A stretch of 21,412 nt of DNA from a virus. The translations under genes were made by a program, and so were the position numbers. The DNA lies in IMG/VR virus record IMGVR_UViG_3300012354_000077, positions 1 to 21,412 of that record; one strand, 5' to 3'. This document shows positions 6,120-21,412 of the stretch, one piece after another (position 1 is the first letter of the stretch; each line of letters starts with the position of its first letter). The notes beneath the pieces were generated by a model. That model had not been told where the DNA came from. It made no database searches and was given only the letters and a program-made list of their open reading frames with translations.

Positions 6120-6595
6120 ACTTCAACGACGAGGCTATCGATGACGTCTTCAGCAAGGTCGTTAGCTACGCGATGCTGACCGGCCGATTTGATTACGTCA
6201 ATCAGCATGAGCCGGTCAGCTCTCCACACCAGGGTGTCCAGTGCTCGGTGTGGATTCAGCGGATTCATCCTATTGCATCGTCCGGACTTAGCTCGACGAG
6301 CGGAGTGGTCCAGCTTAGCGCCCGGATCTACATGAACTTTGTGGCCGAGCCACGCGACGTTATTGATCCAAAGATCACGGCAGCGATATGCGATCTTATG
6401 GGAACGTTGTCTGCCGACTTTGACTTTGGCGGGGAGGCTGGAGTACGAGCAGTTGACCTGCTTGGGATGTCAGGGATCTCCCTCGAGGCCCAGGCTGGCT
6501 ACCTAGAGATCGATCGCCAGATGTTCCGGGTCATGACGCTGACAATTCCTGTCATCATCGACGACATGTTTATCCAGAGGAGTAGCCGTGGTTAA
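6116..6595 (+). CDS. Tail terminator protein
   Basis: A 159-residue protein with GTG start 6116 (GTGA overlap) behind GGGGAGCTG. It reads IDDVFSKVVSYAMLTGRFDY, then VNQHEPVSSPHQGVQCSVWI and QRIHPIASSGLSSTSGVVQL, followed by SARIYMNFVAEPRDVIDPKI and late LLGMSGISLEAQAGYLEID. This combination is the usual signature of actinophage tail terminator (neck) proteins: V-x-THEP-like opening, VWV-x-RI, RIY-x-N, DxIDP, LEAQAGYL. The protein would cap the tail tube and join it to the head. Its place just before the tail-tube genes agrees. Confidence 0.85.
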   Translation: MNFNDEAIDDVFSKVVSYAMLTGRFDYVNQHEPVSSPHQGVQCSVWIQRIHPIASSGLSSTSGVVQLSARIYMNFVAEPRDVIDPKITAAICDLMGTLSADFDFGGEAGVRAVDLLGMSGISLEAQAGYLEIDRQMFRVMTLTIPVIIDDMFIQRSSRG

Positions 6596-7235
6596 GGGAC
6601 CGGTAATGCTTGGGTACGTCTCGGACGGCTGGGGCCGTATTGAGTTCCTCGACTCTATGCTGAATGCCGTGTCTGGTCCAGAGGCCGATCCGGCTATCGG
6701 TGGCGTGATTAGCTCGTCGGCAGGACCTCTCCTGGCGCTTGCCCGAAACCTGCTTGTGAAGCAGTTTCTCGACCACGACCTGGAATGGCTGTGCAGTATC
6801 GATACTGATATCGTGTTCGCGTCGGATGCTGTCGGTCGGCTCCTCGAGTCAGCCGACAGCGTTGAGCGGCCGATCATGAGCGCGCTGTACCACGTATTCC
6901 ACAACGGCCAGAAGATCCCGGCCGTTTACCTGAACACGTCGGAAGGTAGCAAGCTAGATATCCAGCCGGTACGGGACATTCGGGAGGATTGTGTCGTCCG
7001 GGTTTTCAGCGTCGGAGCGGGATGCCTGCTTGTTCATCGTTCCGTGTTCGAGACGATCTACAAGAATGCAGGCGAAGACAACTGCTGGTTCCGCGAGGGG
7101 GTTATGGACAAGCGAGACTTTGGTGAGGACATGTCCTTCTGCATCCGTGCAGCTATCTCTGGCTTTACGGTTCACGTCAACACAGGCGTCCAGGTCGGGC
7201 ATGTCAAGTCGGCGATGCTCGGAAGGGTGAGGTGA
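6588..7235 (+). CDS. Phage glycosyltransferase, GT-A fold with DxD motif
   Basis: A 215-residue protein starting at GTG 6588, eight bases inside the tail terminator gene, behind AGAGGAG. It opens VMLGYVSDGWGRIEFLDSML. After a Ser/Ala stretch with ARNLLVKQFLDHDLEWLCSI comes the acidic metal-binding motif DTD in SIDTDIVFASDAVGRLL. A later segment FGEDMSFCIRAAISGFTVHV followed by VGHVK fits the second acidic/His region of GT2-like enzymes. It likely transfers a sugar from a nucleotide donor to a protein or DNA target in the infected cell. The placement between tail terminator and tail tube suggests a tail protein as acceptor, but that is inference. ATG 6606 is an alternative start that would remove little. 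Confidence 0.8.
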   Translation: MVKGPVMLGYVSDGWGRIEFLDSMLNAVSGPEADPAIGGVISSSAGPLLALARNLLVKQFLDHDLEWLCSIDTDIVFASDAVGRLLESADSVERPIMSALYHVFHNGQKIPAVYLNTSEGSKLDIQPVRDIREDCVVRVFSVGAGCLLVHRSVFETIYKNAGEDNCWFREGVMDKRDFGEDMSFCIRAAISGFTVHVNTGVQVGHVKSAMLGRVR

Positions 7236-7456
7236 TGACAAAGACAACTGCATGGGCGTTCGGAAAGATGCTGGTCGAGGCTGGCGTCATTTCCCGGGAG
7301 CGTCTTAACAATACATGCCGGATCGTTATCGACGCAAACAGCGATGGCGAGCTGTTCATTTACATACAAGAATTCGGGAACAGGGAAGCCCTGGAGAAGC
7401 TGGCTCCGATGCTGAAGGGGATGATACCCGATGCCGAAGCAGACGGGTCTCGGTGA
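7235..7456 (+). CDS. 73-residue hypothetical protein upstream of the tail tube
   Basis: ATG 7235 overlaps the previous stop, with GGAAGG (7221-7226) eight bases upstream. GTG 7232 is a possible start three bases earlier. The protein reads WAFGKMLVEAGVISRERLNN, then CRIVIDA...GELFIYIQEFG and ALEKLAPML. This resembles the short R-V-V-I-D-I plus E-x-x-GD-x-x-L proteins often found just before actinophage tail-tube genes. It overlaps the next gene by 26 bases. No function is known. Confidence 0.65.
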   Translation: MTKTTAWAFGKMLVEAGVISRERLNNTCRIVIDANSDGELFIYIQEFGNREALEKLAPMLKGMIPDAEADGSR

Positions 7457-8384
7457 TAACTTCTATGTCGGCGGATACGATCTGTCAGGAGACGTAGCTT
7501 CCGTTGACCAGATTAGCGCGCCAATGACGCCAATCGACGTCACATCGCTGACTTTTAAGGCTCCACAACGCCTGGGTGGACGGCGGGACGGGAACATTAG
7601 CTTCACGACATTCCTGGATATTAACGTGCCCACGGTGTCGACTCCGGCTGTTCCGGCCAGCGGTACGCCGTATATCAACGCATTCCCCTACCCGGTGCAT
7701 ATTACCATCACCGGTGGCACGATGACCAACGTCGTGATTAATGGCGTCTCGGTCGGCTCGGGCGCGGGCACATATACCCTTCCGGTGAATGGCTCGATTA
7801 CGCTGACATACACCGTAGCTCCAACCTGGAGTTTCTTTGTCTGGGGCACAGAGCACAATGCTCTGGCCAGTATTCCGTCAGCCGATGTTGCCGTTAGCTA
7901 CTTCCAGGGGACAACGATTGGTAATCCGGCCGCGTCGATGGTCTCGAAGCAGACTAACTATGACCCGACTCGCTCGGCCGATGCGAGCATTACCCTGAAG
8001 GTAGACGCCCAGGCGAATAGTTTTGGCGTGGAATGGGGCCGGCAGCTCACGGGTGGGCTCCGGACGGACAACGGCCCGGTGACCGGGCCGTTCTATGACC
8101 ATGGTGTCCCGCCCGGCGCCTGGGGCTGCCAGGCCTATCTCCATCTCGTCGAGCTGGTCGGCACGAATGTCCAGGTCACCATTACGCACTGTGCGACTTC
8201 AGGTGGCTCCTACACAACCCTAATCGACTTTGGCAGCCTGACGGCCATTGGCGACAAGCGGATCGCTACGGCCAATACGGTGACCGTTAACCAGTTCCTC
8301 AAGGTCGTGTCAGCCGGCACGTTCACCCAGGCGGTGTTCGGTGTTAACTTCGTCCGGAATCCGGCGGCGGGAGTTGCATTTTAA
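7431..8384 (+). CDS. Major tail (tube) protein with an inserted Ig-like domain
   Basis: A 317-residue protein starting at ATG 7431 behind GGGGATGATACCCG, a weak site, so probably coupled to the overlapping gene upstream. It opens MPKQTGLGDNFYVGGYDLSG with DVTSLTFKAPQRLGGRRDG. The core continues with YFQGTTIGNPAASMVSKQTN and YDPTRSADASITLKVDAQAN. It then has VEWGRQLTGGLRTD, a pattern I recognise from actinophage tail proteins. Residues 88-138 (ITITGGTMTN...GAGTYTLPVNGSI) form an extra beta-sandwich-like insert that could project from the tail tube. The last part (CATSGGSYTTLIDFGSLTAI) is again beta-rich. Confidence 0.8.
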   Translation: MPKQTGLGDNFYVGGYDLSGDVASVDQISAPMTPIDVTSLTFKAPQRLGGRRDGNISFTTFLDINVPTVSTPAVPASGTPYINAFPYPVHITITGGTMTNVVINGVSVGSGAGTYTLPVNGSITLTYTVAPTWSFFVWGTEHNALASIPSADVAVSYFQGTTIGNPAASMVSKQTNYDPTRSADASITLKVDAQANSFGVEWGRQLTGGLRTDNGPVTGPFYDHGVPPGAWGCQAYLHLVELVGTNVQVTITHCATSGGSYTTLIDFGSLTAIGDKRIATANTVTVNQFLKVVSAGTFTQAVFGVNFVRNPAAGVAF

Positions 8385-8854
8385 TGCCGACGCTAATGCA
8401 GCAGCGACAGTTCGTCTGCCGTCCAGAGCCATACATGGAGCCGCAGGCGTACAAGACGTACTCATACAGCACGCCTGCACGGACACATTTCCGTCCGGCA
8501 AGCTGCGAAGAGTACCTGTGCCAGGATTTTCGGTATGGATTTATGACGACTCTGGATCTGTCGACTGATGTCGGGCAGAGATATGCCGATTTTATCCGGA
8601 AGGACAAGAGCCGGAGTCCGACCGAGATCCGTACGGGGCTGTACGAGGCCAGGTTTGTATTTCCTCCCGGCACTCCGTGCTGGCGCTGGAAGGAACACCG
8701 GATTCCTGTGGAGAAGCCGCCAATTCTTGTCGTCCGGAGAGGAGACTGGCGTGGAAGCCTTGGACTGATTCGGCGACATTCACGGGTGGAATTCTGGGCG
8801 GAAGATTTTGCAGAGCATCAGGACGGTCTAGCAAAGATATTCAACCGAGGATAA
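8384..8854 (+). CDS. Hypothetical protein between two tail-tube-like genes
   Basis: A 156-residue protein whose ATG overlaps the previous stop (TAATG). It contains RPASCEEYLCQDFRYGFMTT, then RTGLYEARFVFPPGTPCWRW and later LVVRRGDWRGSLGLIRRHSR, with the ending DDFAEHQ-like VEFWAEDFAEHQDGLAKIF. This CEEYL...FPPG-x-PC...RGDWRG...DFAEHQ pattern is one I know from actinophage proteins next to tail genes, but it has no assigned function. Several conserved Cys, Trp and Arg residues suggest a compact folded domain. The location implies a tail assembly or tail surface role. Confidence 0.75.
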   Translation: MPTLMQQRQFVCRPEPYMEPQAYKTYSYSTPARTHFRPASCEEYLCQDFRYGFMTTLDLSTDVGQRYADFIRKDKSRSPTEIRTGLYEARFVFPPGTPCWRWKEHRIPVEKPPILVVRRGDWRGSLGLIRRHSRVEFWAEDFAEHQDGLAKIFNRG

Positions 8855-8867
8855 GAAGGAAGGAAGA

Positions 8868-9284
8868 ATGCCAAAGCTAACAGGCCTCTCCGGCACCCTT
8901 AAGGTGACGGACGCCGGAGCTACGTACCGCGACATCGGCGCGGACATTACCAACTACAACTTCTCGACGCCGCGTGGTCTCGAGGACGTCACGGGAATGA
9001 ACAAGTTCGCGAATGAGCGACTGCTGCTTCTGACGGACTTTACCGTCACGTTCAACGGGATCATGGACAACGACGCAAACATGAGCCACTCTGTGTTCTC
9101 GACGGTGACCGGCACGTCGGTCACCCGCTCGGTCTCGATCGCGCCGACGCCCACCACGACCACGCCGATCATCACGGTTAACTGCCTCATCACCGATTAC
9201 CAGATCACCCGCGCGGCGAACGCTGAGCTTACCTGGCAGGTTCCGGCCTCGCTTGCCGACGGCGCTGTGCCGACGTGGGCCTAG
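8868..9284 (+). CDS. Second tail-tube-like protein
   Basis: A 138-residue protein starting at ATG 8868 behind AGAAGGAAGGAAGA. It reads MPKLTGLSGTLKVTDAGATY, then DIGADITNYNFSTPRGLEDV, VTGMNKFANERLLLLTDFTV, and late NCLITDYQITRAANAELTWQ with ASLADGAVPTWA. This layout is characteristic of short tail-tube subunits in actinophages (DVTG-x-x-K-x-A-x-ERL-LL, ELTW-x-x-P...DG-x-x-PTW). It resembles the gene at 7431 in its start and in the DVT...ERL segment, so the two are probably related. The short protein could be the main tube subunit and the longer one a variant or decoration, or the reverse. Sequence alone does not decide. Confidence 0.8.
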   Translation: MPKLTGLSGTLKVTDAGATYRDIGADITNYNFSTPRGLEDVTGMNKFANERLLLLTDFTVTFNGIMDNDANMSHSVFSTVTGTSVTRSVSIAPTPTTTTPIITVNCLITDYQITRAANAELTWQVPASLADGAVPTWA

Positions 9285-9291
9285 GAGAGAT

Positions 9292-9708
9292 ATGGGATAC
9301 CGGCGTGAGCTTAAGCGCTACGTCCTGAAATTCGAGGACGAGGAATTTAGCGGATTCGAATGCGTCTGTGGATCTTTGTCCGTCGATGAGTTTCTCGAGC
9401 TCAATGCCCTGGCAGGCGAGATGATGTCCAGTAATCCGGATGTCGAGGAAGTCGGGCGGCTGTTCAATCTTCTCTCCGAGAAGATTGTGCGCTGGAATCT
9501 CGAGGATGACGAGGGCAAGCCCATTGCGCATGGGCCGGAAGATCTGCGGGCGCAAGATATCGACTTCATTGTAGCTATCTTGATGGCCTGGCTGGATGGA
9601 ATGTCCGTGGTACCCGGCCCTTTGCCGAACGACTCGAGCTCTGGAGGGACTTCCCTGGATGCTATGACAACAGAACTGGCGAATATGTCACGGAGCCGAC
9701 CGAGCTAG
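9292..9708 (+). CDS. Tail assembly chaperone, short (gpG-like) product
   Basis: A 138-residue protein starting at ATG 9292 behind TAGGAGAGAT. The earlier in-frame GTG-type start at 9253 lies inside the tail-tube gene and has no ribosome site. It reads KRYVLKFEDEEFSGFECVCG, then LSVDEFLELNALAGEMMSSN and a helical segment ending VPGPLPNDSSSGG. Acidic N-terminal strands followed by helices and a Pro/Ser tail before a frameshift are typical of tail assembly chaperones that sit just before the tape measure gene. The protein would keep the tape measure soluble during tube polymerisation. Confidence 0.8.
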   Translation: MGYRRELKRYVLKFEDEEFSGFECVCGSLSVDEFLELNALAGEMMSSNPDVEEVGRLFNLLSEKIVRWNLEDDEGKPIAHGPEDLRAQDIDFIVAILMAWLDGMSVVPGPLPNDSSSGGTSLDAMTTELANMSRSRPS

Positions 9709-9860
9709 CCGAGGCAAAGCTTATTCTCGGGCTCTGCGACAGATTTCACTGCATACCGGATGTGGCCCGGGGCATGAGCGCTGATGTCCTGCGGCTCCTA
9801 AAGATCGAGGAACTCGGCGTGTCGCACGAGCAGCCGGAAGGAGGTGAAGAATTTGGCTAA
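9292..9860 (+). CDS. Tail assembly chaperone, long (gpGT-like) product by -1 frameshift
   Basis: The same start as the short form. At CCCTTTG (9618-9624) ribosomes can slip back one base. Reading then continues as AERLELWRDFPGCYDN, RTGEYVTEPTELAEAKLILG and LCDRFHCIPDVARGM, then ends at TAA 9858-9860. The downstream part has no good start codon or ribosome site of its own and reads as protein right up to the tape measure start. By count the fused product is 189 residues. The TGEYV...AEAKLILGLCDRF pattern is typical of the second chaperone domain in actinophages. A ratio of short to long form is a known need in siphovirus tail assembly. Confidence 0.75.
9618..9624 (+). promoter_or_regulatory. 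Slippery heptamer for -1 ribosomal frameshift
   Basis: C CCT TTG fits the X-XXY-YYZ pattern in the frame of the short chaperone. After a one-base slip the codons become CCC and TTT. A small hairpin (AGGG-ACTT-CCCT, 9645-9656) lies about 20 bases downstream but is too short to be convincing as a stimulator. Exact use of the site is inferred from frame continuity on both sides. Confidence 0.65.
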
Positions 9861-12800
9861 TGACGTTGTGATTCACGTCCGGGCGAGGGACGAGGCGACA
9901 GCTCGGTTTAGGAAAGTTGAGGAAGAAGGCCGACAGACCGCTAGAAGGACCAACAACAGCCTGAGTGGCATCGGCAAGGGCATTGGAACGGGTCTTGGTG
10001 GCCTTATCGGGAACATCACGAGCGTTGGTGATGCGCAGGTTGCTGCCTCGGGGAAATCGAATCTCTTTGCCCGGGCTCTCGCTGGAGTTAACCTGGCGAC
10101 CGGAATTCTTGAGCCTGCACTCGCGGGAATAGTTGCGGGTGGAACGGCCATCGGGTCGGTATTCCTGAGTGCTGGGATTGGGCTCGGCATCTATGGAGTG
10201 GTCGCGGGAACGACGATAACAAAGGCAGCGGAGGCCTCTAAGAAAGCGGCGACGGCGAGCGACGCTTATACTGCTGCTGTCGCCGCCGCGAACTTTCGGT
10301 ATAAGCAGCAGATGGAAGTCGCCACGACTAAAGCGCAGCGGCAGGCGGCCGAGAATACCCGGGCATCCGCGCTCCAGTCGGCCCTGACGGCCAAAGTAAA
10401 AGGCACCACGGCTGCCTACCAGGGCCTCACAGCACCGCAGCTTGAAATGGCCGACGCGATCACCCGGACGAAGGACCGATGGGATAAGTTTACTGCGGCC
10501 GCTGCCCCGACGGTTATCCGGCCGATAATGGCTGCCCTGGATCTTATGCCGCGTGGGCTGAAGATTATGCAGCCGTTCCTGGCGCCTGTCAGCAAGGCCC
10601 TGTCTAGTGTGGTCGCGTCGATTAAGGCGGGTATCGCCCCGGGCTCGGCGTTCTCCGGAATTATGGCGGACTTTGCAAAGAGCAGTGGGACGACTCTCGC
10701 CTCGGGCCTGCGGATAGCTGGAAACCTGCTTATGGGCATTCTTGGGATTTTTCACTCCTTTCTGCCGGAAGGAGGGAAGATGATTGCCCTGGCCGAGAAG
10801 GGCAGCGTAAAGTTCCGGGAATGGGGCCTTACTCTCTCGCATCACACCGGGTTCCAGGCTCTGATGACAATGTTCCGGGAAGAGACCCCCAAGGCGATGG
10901 AGATTCTCCGGAATCTTGGAGGAACTCTGCTGAATGTTGGTAAGGCGATGACAGGCCTGTCGGTATTCTCGAATAGCCATATGCTGCTCAACTTGCTACT
11001 ACCGCTGTCCAGTATCCTCAATGAGCTGTCAAGAAACCAGGCACTCGTCCGTATGCTTCTCTATCTCCTTGCGATTCACTCGGCAACGGGCAAGCTTAAG
11101 CCAGCATTTGAATCGGTGTTTGGAGCGAGCGGAATTATCCAGGGCGTACGGAAACTCGTCCCGGAGATCGGCAGGGTCACGAAGTCGATGCTCGGGCTCG
11201 ACGCTGCGATGAACGCGAACGTTGTTGGACTGGTCGTTCTCGCTATCGCCGCGCTGGCAGCCGGAATGGTCTATGCCTGGAAGAAATCGGCTGGCTTCCG
11301 GGATTTCCTCAAGCAGCTAGGTGTCGCTTTTCTTGATGTTGGTATTATTTTTGCCAATGTCGCGAAGTGGATTGTTGGTAGATACCTGAGTATGATCGGT
11401 GTGGTCGTCCACGGGGCGGCGACCGCATTCGGCTGGATCCCTGGCATTGGCAGCAAGCTAAAGACGGCGGATGTCGCATTCCAGGGATTTCAGCGGAATG
11501 TCAGCGGCGCATTCGACGGCATTATCGGAAAGATGGAAGAATGGAAGAAGAAGCTTCAGGATAGCACGCATCAATCTGAAAAGGCTCGGCAGAATATTGT
11601 TGCGGACTTCAGTAAGCAGGCAGACGCAGCCAGGAGCGCGAGTACCGACCTCAAGAAGTACAGCACTAGTATTCGGGACAATGGCGCCTATTCGTCAGAC
11701 GCACAGAAGAAGCGCCAGCAGCTCGTTACCGACATGATCCACGCTGGCGTTAATGCAAAGACGGCCAAGACCGACGTTGACAAGTACACCTGGGCGATCC
11801 AGGTAAACGGCCAGAATTCTAATGCAGCCCGGCAGGCTCGCACGCGCCTGAACGATGATATTGAGACGGCGTTTAAGCGCTCGCGGCAGGGCAAGACGGA
11901 CGTGAACCGTTTCACTGATGCCGTTCTTCATCACAGCCGGAATAGCGACGCGGTACGTGGAGCGCGCCAGCGACTCATCAATGACCTCGTCAACGCTGGC
12001 CTTGACTCTAAGACGGCAAAGAAGCTCGTTGACCAGATGCAGACGTCCATCAACCGGATGCACGGCAAGAAGGTCGATGTTACCGTTCGCGGCCATGGCT
12101 CCGGAGGAGTGAAGATCCTTCCGACTCCCACCGGATTCCCGGGTGCGAAGGACCTGTCGGTATACTTCAAGCCGCTAGCTCGTGGCGGACGACTTCCCGG
12201 ATTTGGTGGCGGAGACCGGCACGCGGCCCTGCTCGAGTCGGGTGAGGCTGTTGTTGATAAGCACCGAACGAGGAAGTTTGCTCCTCTACTTAAGGCGATG
12301 GGTGTGCCGGGCATGGCGGACGGTGGGCTTGTTGGTGCTCCGTCTCTTGTTGGCCGGGCGGCGAGCGCGGATGCCGGAGCGGGCGTAAGACTAGATGTTA
12401 GCTCCTACATAAAGTACCTCAAGAGCCTGATGACCGGAACGGGTGCTGGGGTCCTTGCCTTTGCGGAGTCTTTTCGCAATAGAACTCCGTATGTCTGGGG
12501 TGGCTCTACTCCGGCAGGCTGGGACTGCTCGGGGTTCGTGTCGTATGTATACAATCACTTCAAGCTGCTGAATGGCCGGATGGATGCGGCCGGGCTCCAG
12601 CGCTGGGGACGTCCATCCGGTCCGATTCCAGGTGGTATGGCGTTCTACGGGAACCCAGCGCATCACGTTGGCTTCGTCGTGAATGGCTCGACGCTGCTGT
12701 CTGCACTTGGACGTAAGTGGGGTACGATTCATTCGTCCCTGAAAATGCATGACAATAGCGGATATGGCGTCCCGCCGAGTGGCTTCGGTATGGCCGGCGG

Positions 12801-13404
12801 AGGAGCCGGTGGTCCTATCGGCGGAAGCAAGCTGAAGGAGCTCGCTTATTCGCTGCTCGCCCAGTATGGATGGGCTCGGCAGTGGGCTTCATTCAACGCC
12901 CTAGAGGACTCCGAGGCAGGCTGGCGGATGACAGCTCGCAACCCTTCATCCGGTGCTTATGGCCTGGCTCAGTTCATTAACGGACCGTCCGAGTACTACC
13001 AGTACGGTGGGAATCCAAACACGGGCCTGGGCCAGCTCACAGCCATGATGAACTACATCGGGCAGCGGTACCCGTCGGGGCCAAACCAGGCCTGGGCTTT
13101 CCACTTGCGCAATAACTGGTATGGGGCAGGTGGTCCGGCGAGCGGCTGGGGCATCGCCGGAGAGCACGGCCGGGAGCTCATACGGTTCCCGCATGGCAGC
13201 TACGTCTACCCGCACGGACAGACCGAGCGCATGCTCAAGGGCGCTAGTACTGGTCCTGGTGATATCAGCGTCACGATAGTCATTGAGAACAAGGGTGTGA
13301 TTGGGTCGAGAGCTGAACTGGATAACTGGCTGAGTGACTCCGTTGATAGGCTCGCACGAAACGGACGGCTGACGTACGCAATTCGGAGGAGCGTTAGTGC
13401 CTGA
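9853..13404 (+). CDS. Tape measure protein with NlpC/P60 and lysozyme-like domains
   Basis: A 1183-residue protein. TTG 9853 is chosen because GGAGG (9840-9844) lies eight bases upstream and the product then starts MANDVVIHVRARDEATARF, as in many tape measures. GTG 9844 overlaps that ribosome site. Hydrophobic segments lie near residues 73-125 and 454-478. Residues 598-723 are three 42-residue repeats. A Gly-rich hinge (GRLPGFGGGDRHAALLESGE, about 778) leads to an NlpC/P60-type domain with WDCSGF (Cys892) and HHVGF (His937/938). Residues 1000-1095 form a lysozyme-like domain (NALEDSEAGWR with Glu1021; SSGAYGLAQFI). It sets tail length, and its C-terminal end probably helps cut peptidoglycan at entry. 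Confidence 0.92.
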   Translation: MANDVVIHVRARDEATARFRKVEEEGRQTARRTNNSLSGIGKGIGTGLGGLIGNITSVGDAQVAASGKSNLFARALAGVNLATGILEPALAGIVAGGTAIGSVFLSAGIGLGIYGVVAGTTITKAAEASKKAATASDAYTAAVAAANFRYKQQMEVATTKAQRQAAENTRASALQSALTAKVKGTTAAYQGLTAPQLEMADAITRTKDRWDKFTAAAAPTVIRPIMAALDLMPRGLKIMQPFLAPVSKALSSVVASIKAGIAPGSAFSGIMADFAKSSGTTLASGLRIAGNLLMGILGIFHSFLPEGGKMIALAEKGSVKFREWGLTLSHHTGFQALMTMFREETPKAMEILRNLGGTLLNVGKAMTGLSVFSNSHMLLNLLLPLSSILNELSRNQALVRMLLYLLAIHSATGKLKPAFESVFGASGIIQGVRKLVPEIGRVTKSMLGLDAAMNANVVGLVVLAIAALAAGMVYAWKKSAGFRDFLKQLGVAFLDVGIIFANVAKWIVGRYLSMIGVVVHGAATAFGWIPGIGSKLKTADVAFQGFQRNVSGAFDGIIGKMEEWKKKLQDSTHQSEKARQNIVADFSKQADAARSASTDLKKYSTSIRDNGAYSSDAQKKRQQLVTDMIHAGVNAKTAKTDVDKYTWAIQVNGQNSNAARQARTRLNDDIETAFKRSRQGKTDVNRFTDAVLHHSRNSDAVRGARQRLINDLVNAGLDSKTAKKLVDQMQTSINRMHGKKVDVTVRGHGSGGVKILPTPTGFPGAKDLSVYFKPLARGGRLPGFGGGDRHAALLESGEAVVDKHRTRKFAPLLKAMGVPGMADGGLVGAPSLVGRAASADAGAGVRLDVSSYIKYLKSLMTGTGAGVLAFAESFRNRTPYVWGGSTPAGWDCSGFVSYVYNHFKLLNGRMDAAGLQRWGRPSGPIPGGMAFYGNPAHHVGFVVNGSTLLSALGRKWGTIHSSLKMHDNSGYGVPPSGFGMAGGGAGGPIGGSKLKELAYSLLAQYGWARQWASFNALEDSEAGWRMTARNPSSGAYGLAQFINGPSEYYQYGGNPNTGLGQLTAMMNYIGQRYPSGPNQAWAFHLRNNWYGAGGPASGWGIAGEHGRELIRFPHGSYVYPHGQTERMLKGASTGPGDISVTIVIENKGVIGSRAELDNWLSDSVDRLARNGRLTYAIRRSVSA
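11644..11769 (+). repeat. Tape measure 42-residue repeat, unit 1
   Basis: Residues 598-639 of the tape measure. The unit opens TDLKKYSTSI, has SSDAQKKRQQLVTDM in the middle and ends GVNAKTAK. It is one of three adjacent units of exactly 126 bases each that align without gaps at the protein level (T-D-[LV]-x-[KR]-[YF] start, S-x-[DN]-A then basic helix). Confidence 0.8.
11770..11895 (+). repeat. Tape measure 42-residue repeat, unit 2
   Basis: Residues 640-681. The unit opens TDVDKYTWAI, has NSNAARQARTRLNDD in the middle and ends FKRSRQGK. It is the most diverged of the three at its end (KRSRQGK where the others have NAKTAK and DSKTAK) but keeps the same length. Confidence 0.8.
11896..12021 (+). 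repeat. Tape measure 42-residue repeat, unit 3
   Basis: Residues 682-723. The unit opens TDVNRFTDAV, has NSDAVRGARQRLIND in the middle and ends AGLDSKTAK. It is followed by KLVDQMQTSI, which could be the start of a fourth, broken unit. Units 1 and 3 share the AG[VL][ND][AS]KTAK ending. Confidence 0.8.
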
Positions 13405-14720
13405 TGGCAGTGGATAGCTGGCCGACGATTGTTACCGAGGCTGGTCTCGTCACGACATCGCCGGTGCAGCCTGGTGATGTGCTTATTCTCAATGACGTTT
13501 CCCTCGGAATGCTGGACACCGGAACGCTTGGCGGGGACACTGAATGGTCGGATCTGAGTAACTACATTAGGTCATGCTCGATTACTCATCCAGCCAATAG
13601 GCAGCAGGGGCCACTTTATACATATCCGCCAAGTACAATGGCGGCGAATCTCCGGAACGAAGACGGCCGGTTTGATCCCGATAACCTGGCTGGTCCTTAT
13701 GTTGCTGCGGGAGAGACCGAGCTCACGGCAATGGTGCCTGTGCGCAGTCGTGTACTGTGGGCTGGGACCGAATATCCGCTCTACTATGGATACACGGATT
13801 CCTGGGGTGACGACGGACAGGACTACGGCCCAACGTATGCCGAGGCCGAGCTCACAGCAACAGACGCGCAGAAGATTCTTAATGGCATCAATCTGCCGAC
13901 GATTGGAGCAGTTGGGGCGGGCGAGAAGACAGGTGCAAGGATTTCCAGAATCCTGGATCTTGCTGGCTGGCACACAGGAACGAGATACCGGACAATTGCC
14001 ACCGGAGACAGTACCGTCCAGGCATACGTGGGTGGCGACAATGCCTGGAACTCTATGCAGCTTACGACTGACTCAGAGATCGGTGAGCTGTATATGGGTT
14101 ACTCCGGGGAGGCCGTCTTCCGCAATAGGCAGGCGATTCTGTCGGAGGCAAGATCGAATACTGTCCAGGCCGTCTTTGGTGACTCTCCTGGCACCTCGCA
14201 TTCGGCAGGGATAGAGCTGGACTACGTATCGGTATCGCGAGCGAAAGACGACACAACAATCGCCAATGATGTCCAGGCTACCCGGGAAGGTGGCTCGCTC
14301 CAGCAGGTACAGGATCTCACGTCATATGCGAAGTACAAGTTCTTCCGGACATACTCGCGGAGCGATCTTATTCTCCAGGACGACACGACTTCACTTAACT
14401 GGGCGCGATGGGTTCTCTACATCGCCAAAGACGATGAGAATCGTATGGAGCAGATCATCATCAATCCGCTAAAGGATCCAGATAATCTCTGGCCGCAGGT
14501 CCTCGGACGTAAGCGTGGTGACCGGATCCAGGTCTGGCGCAGGCCTCCCGGAGTAGCGGCCTTCTCCAGGGATTGTTTCATCCGTGGTATCCAGCATCAG
14601 TTCAATGCTGAGCGCTGGCGAACGACATGGACCCTGCAGGACGCAACTCGCTACAGCTCGTTCCTGGTCCTTGACAACGTAACGCTTGGCCAGCTTAACA
14701 GTAATGCCCTGGCCTACTAG
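13404..14720 (+). CDS. Minor tail protein, tail-tip hub
   Basis: A 438-residue protein whose ATG overlaps the tape measure stop (TGATG), preceded by GGAGGAGCG. It contains DTEWSDLSNYIRSCSITHPA, LYTYPPSTMAANLRNEDGRF with DPDNLAGPY, then ATDAQKILNGINLP, ARISRILDLAGW and a late DRIQVWRRPPG and CFIRGIQHQFNAERWRTTWT with LQDATRYSSFLVLD. The VRNEDGRFDPxN, ILDxAGW and W-x-T-x-W-x-LxD patterns are those of actinophage minor tail proteins that form the hub or distal tail below the tape measure. No separate distal tail gene is present, so this protein may do both jobs. Its start is fixed by the overlap. Confidence 0.85.
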   Translation: MAVDSWPTIVTEAGLVTTSPVQPGDVLILNDVSLGMLDTGTLGGDTEWSDLSNYIRSCSITHPANRQQGPLYTYPPSTMAANLRNEDGRFDPDNLAGPYVAAGETELTAMVPVRSRVLWAGTEYPLYYGYTDSWGDDGQDYGPTYAEAELTATDAQKILNGINLPTIGAVGAGEKTGARISRILDLAGWHTGTRYRTIATGDSTVQAYVGGDNAWNSMQLTTDSEIGELYMGYSGEAVFRNRQAILSEARSNTVQAVFGDSPGTSHSAGIELDYVSVSRAKDDTTIANDVQATREGGSLQQVQDLTSYAKYKFFRTYSRSDLILQDDTTSLNWARWVLYIAKDDENRMEQIIINPLKDPDNLWPQVLGRKRGDRIQVWRRPPGVAAFSRDCFIRGIQHQFNAERWRTTWTLQDATRYSSFLVLDNVTLGQLNSNALAY

Positions 14721-16798: not shown

Positions 16799-17794
16799 AT
16801 GCCAATGCCCCGTCCAGGAACGGACTTCGACGAGACCGAGCACCCGGCCGTACCGGAGAGTCATCCCCTGATCGCTGCTTCTGAGGCTGTCGGGACTACG
16901 ACGCTGTGGGGGTTTGACTATGCCTGGGAATCTGACACGCCAGCCCAGCTCGTAAGACTGCTTCAGGCTAATAGTGCTGACTTCGTCGCTCGGTATGTGA
17001 CCGACCCTGGGGGCAAGGGAATGCTCTGGGCCGAGGCACAGGCAATGATCGCTGTCGGGATTATGCTCTTTCCAGTCTGGGAAGTCACCGGTACTGACTT
17101 CGTCAATGGCTACGGAGCTGGACTGGCGGACGGCAAGGCCGCTGCCACTGCGATGCGGCACCTGGGCGCACCGGGCGGCTCGCTACTGTGGTTTGCTATC
17201 GACACCGGCACGACTGACTTCGGGTCTACGAACGCCTACCTGCGCGGCTGCAAGGTCGGCTCAGCTGAGTACATCGCCCAGCTCTATGGCTCCTACGATG
17301 TGGTGGAGGCTGCCGCAGCGGCAGGGCTCGGCAGCTGGCATTGGCAGACTTATGCCTGGTCAGCCGGGAAGCTTAGCTCGCATGCGCTGTTGTATCAGTA
17401 CCAGAATGGCGTAACGATTGGCGGAATCTCGATGGACCGCGATCGGACGCTGAAGGCAGTAAGCGGCCCATGGGCGCACACAGAGACAGTGCTGCCGCTA
17501 CCTGCACCAGAACCCACACCCACACCTATACCCACGCCAATCCAGAGGAGGAAAGGCATGCTAATTTTCGAAGTATCCCGCCAGCTATGTACCGACCAGG
17601 GAGTCAGGTGGCCAGGAGTTTTCCTGCTTTCCGGCCAGGCACTTCATCACATCACGGCAAGCGCTACCGACTCAGCTGGGAAATTCACCAGCAATGTCGT
17701 CGCGTACCTTATGGCTCTAGGCCAGCCTGCGCTCGCTGTCATCACGCCTGCTGAGTTCGAGGCTCTCGGCGGTACCCTCGTCAAGATCGTCTAG
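16799..17794 (+). CDS. Endolysin with Rv2525c-like (DUF1906) glycoside hydrolase domain
   Basis: A 331-residue protein starting at ATG 16799 behind TAGGAGGACACT. Residues 30-230 match the Rv2525c-like glycoside hydrolase-type fold: TTLWGFDYAWESDTPAQLVR, FVARYVTDPGGKGM, LLWFAIDTGTTDFG, SAEYIAQLYGSYDVV, WHWQTYAWSAGKL and YQYQNGVTIGGISMDRDRT. Acidic residues at FDYAW, AIDTG and SMDRD fit the expected active-site face. A Pro/Thr linker (PEPTPTPIPTPI) joins a C-terminal domain of about 78 residues (LIFEVSRQL...PGVFLLSGQALHHI). No signal peptide is seen, so export would depend on the holin candidates. The enzyme likely cuts the peptidoglycan sugar backbone, though the exact bond is not known from sequence. 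Confidence 0.8.
   Translation: MPMPRPGTDFDETEHPAVPESHPLIAASEAVGTTTLWGFDYAWESDTPAQLVRLLQANSADFVARYVTDPGGKGMLWAEAQAMIAVGIMLFPVWEVTGTDFVNGYGAGLADGKAAATAMRHLGAPGGSLLWFAIDTGTTDFGSTNAYLRGCKVGSAEYIAQLYGSYDVVEAAAAAGLGSWHWQTYAWSAGKLSSHALLYQYQNGVTIGGISMDRDRTLKAVSGPWAHTETVLPLPAPEPTPTPIPTPIQRRKGMLIFEVSRQLCTDQGVRWPGVFLLSGQALHHITASATDSAGKFTSNVVAYLMALGQPALAVITPAEFEALGGTLVKIV
17546..17551 (+). promoter_or_regulatory. Internal ribosome site in the endolysin gene
   Basis: AGGAGG sits six bases before an in-frame ATG (17558), exactly between linker and C-terminal domain. Within coding sequence such a perfect site is notable. The codons it occupies encode QRRKG, out of character with the Pro/Thr linker before it, which hints that the bases are kept for initiation. 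Confidence 0.6.
17558..17794 (+). CDS. Possible separate product: endolysin C-terminal domain
   Basis: Translation from ATG 17558 would give a 78-residue protein, MLIFEVSRQLCTDQGVRWPG onward, ending ITPAEFEALGGTLVKIV. Its content fits one small domain (VFLLSGQALHHITASATDSA, FTSNVVAYLMALGQPALAVI). Domains with this beginning (MLIF/MLVF then a G-V-F-L pattern and H-I-T) occur in actinophage lysins and as stand-alone small proteins. Some endolysins are known to use internal starts to produce a free wall-binding domain that joins the full-length enzyme. This case is a prediction from the ribosome site and domain border. Confidence 0.5.
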   Translation: MLIFEVSRQLCTDQGVRWPGVFLLSGQALHHITASATDSAGKFTSNVVAYLMALGQPALAVITPAEFEALGGTLVKIV

Positions 17795-17806: not shown

Positions 17807-18292
17807 ATGGGAAGGTACCACGTAAAGATCCAGTCCGCAACGGCCGTGGCGGTCGATACCGCTATGCTGTTCCTGATGTGCCCGGCTGGTTCTGGGTACA
17901 ACCTCAAGAGGGTAGATGCCTCTCTCGCCACCGTCGGCTCGGCCTCTGCTCCTCCGGACCAGAACTGTGTCCTGGGTATCGCGCCGGCCACCGCTGGTCC
18001 GACGGGCGCTCCGTCGCTCACTGGCACGGTGACGCTACTCAACCAGAACTATCCGCCCGCACTGGCTATCGCCGCGACGAGCTATGCAACGACGGCCCCG
18101 ACGTTCGGTGCGTCGGCCAGCGATCCATACCAGATCTCCTGCTCGTCTCGGGGTGGCGGCGTCCTGAACTGGGAGCAGCCGGATGAATGGCAGGTGATCA
18201 AGGGGGTAACCCAGGGACTCGTGTTCGTCAACCGTATCAACGCCCTGACAACTCCGCTCGCCTGGATTATCGACGTCGAGTGGGAAGAATAG
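17807..18292 (+). CDS. Beta-sandwich virion protein (fibre or decoration)
   Basis: A 161-residue protein starting at ATG 17807, eight bases after AGGAGG (17793-17798). ATG 17800 is out of frame and too near. It reads GRYHVKIQSATAVAVDTAML, YNLKRVDASLATVGSASAPP with DQNCVLGI, and closes RGGGVLNWEQPDEWQVIKGV, GLVFVNRI and WIIDVEWEE. A layout of P-P-D-Q-N, an R-G-G-G-x-x-W turn and a W-x-x-E-W-E-E end is frequent in uncultured phage beta-sandwich proteins near tail fibres. Binding to a cell surface is plausible but not shown. Confidence 0.7.
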   Translation: MGRYHVKIQSATAVAVDTAMLFLMCPAGSGYNLKRVDASLATVGSASAPPDQNCVLGIAPATAGPTGAPSLTGTVTLLNQNYPPALAIAATSYATTAPTFGASASDPYQISCSSRGGGVLNWEQPDEWQVIKGVTQGLVFVNRINALTTPLAWIIDVEWEE

Positions 18293-18856
18293 ATGGCCAC
18301 GCTCTATCGCTGGCCGGCCGGAGAGCAATCTTCCGTTGCGGGGGCAGCCGTCACTGCTGCTGCCCTGACGGCAGGTACACCCGATCCGCCGCCGGTCATT
18401 CCAGGTAGCGTTCTTCAGGATGGCGCTCATGTCTTCCTGCGCGCTACTATCGAGGTAACAAGCACAAGCGCTACTCCGACGCTCGTAGCCGGATTCTACG
18501 CGGGTGCGGTTGGTGGTGCTATCGGGAGCGCGGCAGTTCTTGCTGTTACCGCCGCACTAGCTATCAACGTGGCTGCCACTGCCTGGGCCCTTCACCTGGC
18601 CTACGACGGGACGATCCGTACCCTGTCAAAGAGCGTCGGAGTCATCAATGGCTTCGGGATCTCGCACTCATGGATCAACGTCGGGATTACCGGAACGCCT
18701 GTCATCGGAATCATGCCGCAGACAGCTGCACTCCGGACTGTCTCGACCCTCAACACGCGAGACGCTATGCAGCTCGACGTGGGCCTTACCCTGTCCAGCG
18801 TTACTGGCGCGCCGAGCGTCGTCGTCACGAACTTCTGGGGCGAGGTTACAGGATAA
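18293..18856 (+). CDS. Beta-rich virion protein (fibre or decoration)
   Basis: A 187-residue protein whose ATG directly follows the previous stop (TAG ATG), with GGGAAGAAT as ribosome site. It contains AGTPDPPPVIPGSVLQDGAH, VFLRATIEVTSTSATPTLVA, GFYAGAVGGAIGSAAVLAVT and WALHLAYDGTIRTLS, then VTNFWGEVTG at the end. Repeated beta strands with Ala/Gly turns and an F-x-G-E close suggest the same class of virion surface protein as other genes in this window. No catalytic motif is visible. It is followed after 13 bases by the GH5 gene. Confidence 0.7.
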   Translation: MATLYRWPAGEQSSVAGAAVTAAALTAGTPDPPPVIPGSVLQDGAHVFLRATIEVTSTSATPTLVAGFYAGAVGGAIGSAAVLAVTAALAINVAATAWALHLAYDGTIRTLSKSVGVINGFGISHSWINVGITGTPVIGIMPQTAALRTVSTLNTRDAMQLDVGLTLSSVTGAPSVVVTNFWGEVTG

Positions 18857-20594
18857 CAAGGAGACAGACATGAAAAGGTTCATCGCTCTCGCTGGGGCAG
18901 TCGTGAGCATACTCGCCGGATTGCTAACTGCGAACGTCCCGTCGGCGCAGGCTACTGCTGCGCCTAGCATCAGCGTCTCGGGCGGAAGGTTCGTCGATGG
19001 CTCGGGCGCCGCAATCCAGTTGCACGGAGTGAACCGGTCCGGAGCTGAATACGCCTGCGCAGAAGGCTGGGGCATCTTCGACGGCGAGACCGACACCGAT
19101 GCCGCTGTGGCCGCCATGCTGGCCTGGAACATCAACGCGGTGCGAATCCCGCTCAATGAAGATTGCTGGCTCGGAATCAACGGTGTTGCTGCGGCGTATT
19201 CCGGCCGGAATTACCAGAATGCGATAATCAGTTATATTAACCGGCTGAACGCGGCCGGGATTGTCGCCATTCCTAATCTGCATTTCTCCGCGCCAGGCAC
19301 GACCTTGGCTACGGACCAGATGCCGATGGCCGACGCGGACCACGCCCCGGCGTTCTGGACCAGTGCGGCCCAGGCATTCAACAACCAGCCGACCAGTCTG
19401 GGTCAGGATGACCCGGTCACTCAGCCGCACTCGATCGTGTTCGACCTGTTTAACGAGCCGTCCCCTCCTGGAGGGGACAGCAACGCAAACTGGCAGTGTA
19501 TCATGCAGGGCAGCGGCACATGCGGCGGAAGCTCGTATGCTGTTGCCAGCATGCAGTCTATGCTCGATGCTGTCCGGGCTACCGGAGCCATCCAGCCGGT
19601 CCTGACGGCCGGGCCGGATTACGCGGGAGACCTGGACAAGTGGCTGGCCAACCCGGTTGCTGACTCGCTGAATCAGGTCGCCGCATCAGTACACATCTAC
19701 GGATTGCCACTTGATTCGCCGTTGCGGACGACGTACAGCACGGAGATCCCCCCGGTAGCGGCGCAGGTGCCAGTGGTCGTGGGCGAATTCGGCGACACGA
19801 ACTGCACGGACGGATTCACCACCCCGTTCCTGGACTGGGCCTGGCCCGGTAACACGAACGGGACGAACGTGTCCACGATCGCGTGGGCCTTCAACACTGC
19901 CAGCTGCGCGAACGACCCGTCGCTGATCAGTGGAAGCTACACGAACCCGACGCCGACTGCCTACGGGATCGGCGTGAAGAACAAGTACCTGCTGCTGCCC
20001 GTGTTCGGTAGCGGCGCCAGCCAGGCCCCGGCCGTCACAACCGGTGCGGCGACCGGGATCACGAGTTCCGGCGCGACGCTGAACGGAACGGTCAACCCGG
20101 AGGGCCAGGCGTCTACCTACCAGTTCGAGTACGGCACGACGACCGGGTACGGGTCGGTGTCCCCGGCCACCCCGGGCAGCGCAGGCTCCGGGTCGAGCCC
20201 GGTGCCGGAATCGGCGGCGCTGTCCGGCCTGGCCGCGAGCACGACCTACCATTACCGGCTGAATGCCACCAACGCTACCGGGACGACCCATGGGTCAGAC
20301 CAGCAGTTTACCACCGCAGCGTCCGGCGGCGGCGTCTGCCCGGTCAGCGAGGACGCCAGCATGCCCCCGGTAAGGCACAGCGGGTACGGCGTCGCCTCGG
20401 TCACCACGGCCAGCTTCTCGCCTCCGGCCGCCTCCCTGCTGGAAGTCGAGGTGAACGCGCTCCAGGCCAGCATTGGGTCCGGTCTCACCGTGACGGTGAC
20501 CGACTCGGCCGGTGACACGTTCACCGCCGGGCCGCACCTGTACGGGACGGCCGCACCGAACTCGGTCTGGCTCTTCCAGTCGTACCTGCCCGCC

Positions 20595-20618
20595 GGGCAC
20601 ACCGGCCTGACGGTCGTT

Positions 20619-20625
<7 letters not shown>
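20595..20625. other. Junction between the GH5 gene and antisense iolD
   Basis: To the left, the + strand reads as a secreted beta domain up to HTGLTVVLD (ends 20624). To the right, the - strand reads as IolD up to TTVIYVK (ends 20619). Both genes are cut here and neither has its own end. The true border lies within about 30 bases and cannot be fixed, because the shared bases read acceptably in both genes (VKNDRQAGVP on the - strand). Confidence 0.75.

Positions 20626-21412
<787 letters not shown>

Follow-up and report, generated by a model that had tools for sequence, protein, structure and literature searches.

The window analysed here, a linear IMG/VR virus record of 21.4 kb from a soil bacteriophage, raises the question of why a phage should carry a gene for an apparently secreted glycoside hydrolase directly behind its fibre-like genes. 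We consider, with about even confidence, that this gene is an exchangeable operon cassette encoding a secreted beta-glycanase, which would clear surface polysaccharide around the infected cell and so aid release or re-adsorption. The gene follows a run of phage genes, of which these matter most (numbers with L denote the loci compared with the window):

9844 to 13404, plus strand: tape measure gene, first gene of the tail directon (phrog_13339, E 1.2e-13).
13404 to 14720, plus strand: tail gene (phrog_5313).
16799 to 17794, plus strand: endolysin-like gene with an Rv2525c glycoside hydrolase-like domain (PF08924, E 1.6e-16; phrog_13480).
17807 to 18292, plus strand: small phage gene, 80-87% identical to its homologues in L085 and L086.
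18293 to 18856, plus strand: fibre-like gene, with homologues in L086 (49%), L085 (34%) and L119 (family HMM, E 6e-15).
18859 to 18864, plus strand: Shine-Dalgarno-like AGGAGA, 5 nt ahead of the GH5 start.

From 9844 through the GH5 gene, every gene is on the plus strand and the intergenic gaps measure about -4 to 14 bp. The GH5 gene shares this single run with the tape measure and tail genes, as expected of a depolymerase encoded with tail genes, and the endolysin-like gene is located three genes upstream of it. The 13-base gap after the fibre-like gene and the phage-type ribosome site, both pointed out in a preliminary description of this DNA, hold up: the start lies 13 bp past the end of gene 18293, and AGGAGA with its 5-nt spacer reproduces the motif and spacing of the major capsid gene. 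No promoter or terminator pattern was found above chance between 16700 and 20700. In its capsid protein, the phage shares 45% identity with Streptomyces phage Dagobah, and the host is therefore likely to be an actinobacterium. Elsewhere in the structural region (6588-7235), a glycosyltransferase-like protein was recognized by eye from an IDTDIVF motif; a similar protein is encoded at L102 8148-8840.

The GH5 reading frame itself, and the sequence that follows it, comprise the following parts:

18870 to 18956, plus strand: putative signal peptide, residues 1-29 (charge, hydropathy and A-x-A rules; homologous leader in L005).
18993 to 19901, plus strand: GH5 catalytic domain (PF00150; AlphaFold2 model with pLDDT 87.7 matching solved GH5 endoglucanases).
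19455 to 19457, plus strand: codon of Glu196, predicted acid/base (invariant column, 26 aligned sequences).
19785 to 19787, plus strand: codon of Glu306, predicted nucleophile (invariant column, 26 aligned sequences).
20022 to 20321, plus strand: Fn3-like domain, 67% (amino acids) and 70% (DNA) identical to the Fn3 in the L002 tail protein.
20334 to 20618, plus strand: start of a beta-rich module, here called SLL, truncated by the contig junction and matching a module of L108.
20595 to 21412, minus strand: iolD-like (TPP enzyme) fragment (PF02775, E 2.8e-29; 74% to Thermogemmatispora).

At the level of sequence, the gene product is confirmed as a GH5-family enzyme with an intact active site, its activity being predicted. 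The PF00150 match (E 2.5e-18, 67 bits against a cut-off of 23.5) covers residues 42-344 of the protein and positions 1-271 of the 272 in the profile. In an alignment of 26 sequences (A1), which begins at residue 30 of the window protein, Glu196 and Glu306 correspond to E167 and E277 and are both invariant, as are R63, H109, N166, H246, Y248 and W310 in A1 numbering; thus the two catalytic glutamates and the Arg, His, Asn, His, Tyr and Trp by which GH5 is recognized are all conserved throughout. Structure prediction, which the preliminary description had proposed, returned a confident barrel (AlphaFold2, pLDDT 87.7, pTM 0.91), and solved GH5 structures match this model at Z about 32, as expected of a (beta/alpha)8 barrel. 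CjCel5C (8bn7), the metagenomic Cel5A (4hty) and SdGluc5_26A (5a8o) are alike in fold and active-site frame (Z 31-32), with the window protein about 22-23% identical to them over aligned residues; an identity of about 23% is too low, and the substrate therefore cannot be transferred from these endoglucanases. PF00150 is the sole domain match of the protein, in which no peptidoglycan-cutting (endolysin) domain was found. Since no homologue of it was found among 50,697 sequenced phages, the comparison rests on metagenomic viral contigs.

The N-terminal residues 1-29 look like a classical Sec leader. Two positive charges, a hydrophobic core and A-x-A sites are present in the segment MKRFIALAGAVVSILAGLLTANVPSAQATA, the mean hydropathy of its core (2.67) was the highest among the 11 window proteins tested, and a bacterial relative, L005, carries a homologous leader. 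The Fn3-like module is recognizable through its relatives, given that the window protein itself obtains no Pfam call for fn3: it is close to the Fn3 of L002, and the relative in L103 reaches fn3 (PF00041). Catalytic family, both glutamates, signal peptide and Fn3-like module were all claims of the preliminary description, and all of them stand. Beyond the Fn3, the SLL sequence is 44% identical to the L108 module over 63 aa (E 4e-12); its structure model is poor (pLDDT 55). Neither Fn3 nor SLL was found at E 1e-3 in 80 bacterial GH5 loci.

Position 20624, which had been taken for the end of the gene, is no biological gene end, because the contig switches at about 20595-20620 into the reverse-strand iolD fragment and this join cuts the gene; the true C-terminus of the GH5 protein is absent from the contig. 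Homology to iolD stops at 20595 and the fragment lacks both ends, and the phage frame reads as SLL-module sequence until about 20618. As some 25 bases at the junction (20595-20620) are compatible with both the SLL and the iolD sides, which is what a false join predicts, the fragment is probably a foreign sequence joined by assembly (a chimera), not phage. The GH5 gene is consequently flanked by viral genes upstream only, with iolD downstream. The match to Thermogemmatispora came from a search of five genomes, and for this reason the fragment was dropped as a clue to the name of the host. Within the GH5 ORF, GC3 equals that of the phage genes until two thirds of the way through the GH5 domain and climbs from about 0.75 to 0.90 near 19,700, the reading frame staying open across the shift. 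The 3' part (19700-20618) may therefore stem from a different recent source, and the GH5-Fn3-SLL arrangement might be a mosaic that arose recently.

The occupant of the equivalent place differs among related phages. Homologues of genes 17807 and 18293 are present in L085 and L086, and GH5 is absent from both; in L086, the gene after the 18293 homologue begins with a beta-rich module akin to the module at the C-terminus of L104 (32%, E 1e-9), and the following gene of L085 has, by eye, a similar beta-rich start. In L119, a leader-bearing GH12-like gene begins 1 bp past the 18293 homologue and precedes another beta-rich gene, a layout also seen in L118, where the 18293 match is weak (E 0.001). 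In L117, tail gene 13404 (46-51%) and gene 15179 both have homologues, after which come a leader-bearing GH12-like gene and then an endolysin homologue, the tail-gene homologue being two genes upstream of the GH12-like gene. Viral contigs had given no matches when scanned with 18293 by itself or with the tail protein of 13404 (L117 later yielded the tail homologue), and no homologue of 17807 was found among the 50,697 sequenced phages. Because some related phages have leader-bearing GH12-like proteins in equivalent positions and others lack an enzyme there, the place appears exchangeable. Relatives that never carry the gene had been named beforehand as an outcome that would speak against a phage role; this applies to GH5 itself in L085 and L086, whereas L117, L118 and L119 carry other leader-bearing glycanase-like genes in positions of this kind.

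The label GH12-like goes back to a single weak Pfam match (E 0.0014, below the cut-off) and there is no solved relative, so that GH12 membership is not claimed for the family of L103, L104 and L117-L121. Its leader-bearing members (L103 5752-7815, L104 6164-7942, L117-L121) lie in phage structural or lysis neighbourhoods and, judged by eye, most of them have an Asp at the position that Pfam suggests for the GH12 nucleophile.

A scan of viral contigs for the Fn3 revealed further combinations of the same modules. In L002 (IMG/VR contig 3300012206_000001, a soil phage) and L106, a GH26 domain (PF02156), the same Fn3 and a tail protein share one leaderless ORF. In L103, a leader-GH12-like-Fn3-Fn3-SLL protein is encoded with a head decoration gene on one side and the major capsid gene on the other; L104 has a protein of this type behind its tape measure and distal tail genes, and L108 and L109 have a leader-SLL-Fn3 protein ending in a domain that is lysozyme-like by eye, directly behind terminase. 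The ORF in L002 (8987-14944, about 2000 aa) contains GH26, Fn3 and beta-rich modules together with a tail protein that has a homologue at L086 4081-7824; that in L108 (3544-5376) comes right after the large terminase gene, and Pfam left its last, lysozyme-like domain unnamed. No homologues of the L095 GH5, of L104, of L108 or of the L002 GH26-Fn3 region were found among the 50,697 sequenced phages.

GH5 itself was detected at 14 loci in the scan of viral contigs, and five or more other viral contigs have it near or inside structural genes. In the five of the 14 loci whose neighbourhoods were checked (L089, L092, L094, L095, L096), GH5 is leader-bearing and 2 bp past a minor head gene (phrog_115) in L096, leaderless and one gene behind the major capsid gene in L092, 3.8 kb behind a phrog_371 capsid gene in L089, leaderless and less than 10 kb from tail and portal genes in L094, and part of a 1342-aa ORF in L095. 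In L090, a 407-kb viral contig, GH5 is flanked by two similar large genes (6636-13969; MAEVAIQDFR... and MEVVIDDYRQ...). A quick GH5 tree groups the window with Chloroflexota and Streptosporangiaceae sequences (L005, L006) with support 100 and scatters the viral rows among the bacterial ones, with 5 label changes of which at least 3 are forced; as its viral branches are long, it was used solely for this grouping and this scatter, which fits the acquisition of viral GH5 genes on several occasions.

The cassette reading is favored because an intact GH5 active site, an endoglucanase-like barrel and a leader come together in a tightly packed same-strand run with the ribosome-site type of the phage and no clear terminator, because leader-bearing GH12-like genes in L119, L117 and L103 and a leader-bearing GH5 in L096 occur in comparable surroundings, and because a plausible target exists. 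Indeed, Streptomyces possesses a cellulose-like glycan outside peptidoglycan, which protects against lysozyme (PMC9040799). The GH5 protein would be made late, together with the tail and lysis proteins, and exported through Sec, which would place it outside the infected cell; the combination of an export signal, a glycanase and this operon position points to such a release. There, the Fn3 and SLL modules might anchor the enzyme to polysaccharide or to released virions, and the GH5 barrel would cleave a beta-linked glycan of the host surface or matrix, the cellulose-like glycan being a candidate. The coat outside peptidoglycan would thereby be thinned, progeny might exit and reach new cells more easily, and an endoglucanase acting from outside would complement an endolysin acting from inside. 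Of the two roles suggested in the preliminary description, movement through a polysaccharide layer is thus the one favored by the operon position and by the different glycanases in equivalent places of related phages; its reading of the gene as a secreted GH5 fused to Fn3 and lying behind fibre-like genes is also supported.

We propose more tentatively that an exchangeable place in tail-lysis or head operons, occupied by secreted beta-glycanases that strip host glycans (GH5, GH12-like, or GH26 if tail-fused), is common to phages of filamentous soil bacteria. If so, a cellulose-like or similar surface glycan of the host would form, next to peptidoglycan, a second barrier that phages have to open enzymatically on leaving and entering, and many "carbon-cycling AMGs" of soil viruses would be coat-removal enzymes. 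Glycoside hydrolases of soil viruses have been read as agents of plant-carbon turnover (PMC6786970), and a role on the host coat would change this reading.

The GH5 protein might instead be a virion-associated depolymerase, held on the tail by Fn3 and SLL and cutting polysaccharide at adsorption, which we regard as rather unlikely although several loci speak for it. Tail-spike and fibre polysaccharide depolymerases are glycan-cutting and encoded with tail genes, and are usually leaderless virion proteins; what they usually lack, and the window protein has, is an export signal. The window gene comes after fibre-like genes, GH26 and the same Fn3 lie in one ORF with a tail protein (L002), GH5 lies inside the large L095 ORF, and leaderless GH5 genes are found close behind a capsid gene (L092) and near tail and portal genes (L094). 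The glycanase domains of L002 and L095, in large ORFs of tail or virion type, fit a virion role equally well. However, a classical Sec leader would remove the protein from the cytoplasm, where tails are assembled. The earlier statement that the enzyme is not a virion part is therefore sustained in part: the leader favors export, and the Fn3-linked GH26-tail fusion and the L095 ORF speak for a virion role. It is also possible that Fn3 and SLL attach the enzyme to virions once these have been released, which would bring the secreted and the tail-fused forms together.

A role as an auxiliary metabolic gene, in which the infected host would secrete the enzyme, digest plant or microbial polysaccharide and feed on it during infection, seems improbable. 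The closest catalytic domains are those of secreted bacterial GH5 enzymes, and endomannanase activity has been demonstrated for a viral GH5 (PMC6786970), but a feeding benefit would come too late from a gene in the tail-lysis run, the place recurs in related phages while the type of enzyme changes, and the 80 bacterial GH5 loci yielded neither Fn3 nor SLL; past enzyme homology, nothing positive supports this second option of the preliminary description. It is very unlikely that part or all of the GH5 gene is bacterial and was joined near 18,860 or within the ORF, as the almost certainly false join to iolD at the contig end, the GC3 shift and the GH5-less L085 and L086 might suggest, given a phage-like GC3 until two thirds into the GH5 domain, a 13-bp gap and ribosome site that suit the gene run, Fn3 and SLL partners in phage genes, and the leader-bearing glycanases that L119, L118 and L096 independently place right after fibre-like or head genes.

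Among known systems, the GH5 endomannanase of a Stordalen Mire soil virus, shown to be active on mannan, bears out the earlier remark that GH5 genes occur in soil viruses. It is likewise a GH5 on a soil viral contig, compared here by description and not by sequence; it has been interpreted as a plant-carbon AMG, and the text considered mentions no signal peptide, Fn3 or exchangeable tail-lysis place (PMC6786970). L005 (Chloroflexota MAG) and L006 (Streptosporangiaceae MAG) encode secreted GH5 enzymes that share leader and catalytic domain with the window protein (50-59% identity), but Fn3 and SLL were not found in them, nor a phage operon in the parts examined. The L002 protein is like the window protein a clan GH-A type glycanase of a soil phage with the same Fn3, and differs in being GH26 rather than GH5, leaderless and fused to a tail protein. 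A comparable layout is seen in ORF22 of the actinobacterial Thermobifida phage P1312, with a predicted signal peptide, an enzyme domain and a carbohydrate-binding module; unlike in the window, the enzyme domain is of metallophosphatase type, and prevention of superinfection has been proposed as its role (PMC4569894). Viral GH5 enzymes and a phage protein with the order signal peptide-enzyme-CBM are therefore already known. As far as the literature searched shows, what is new is that the place recurs in tail-lysis or head operons, that glycanase types are swapped there, and that the same Fn3 links secreted and tail-fused forms of glycanase.
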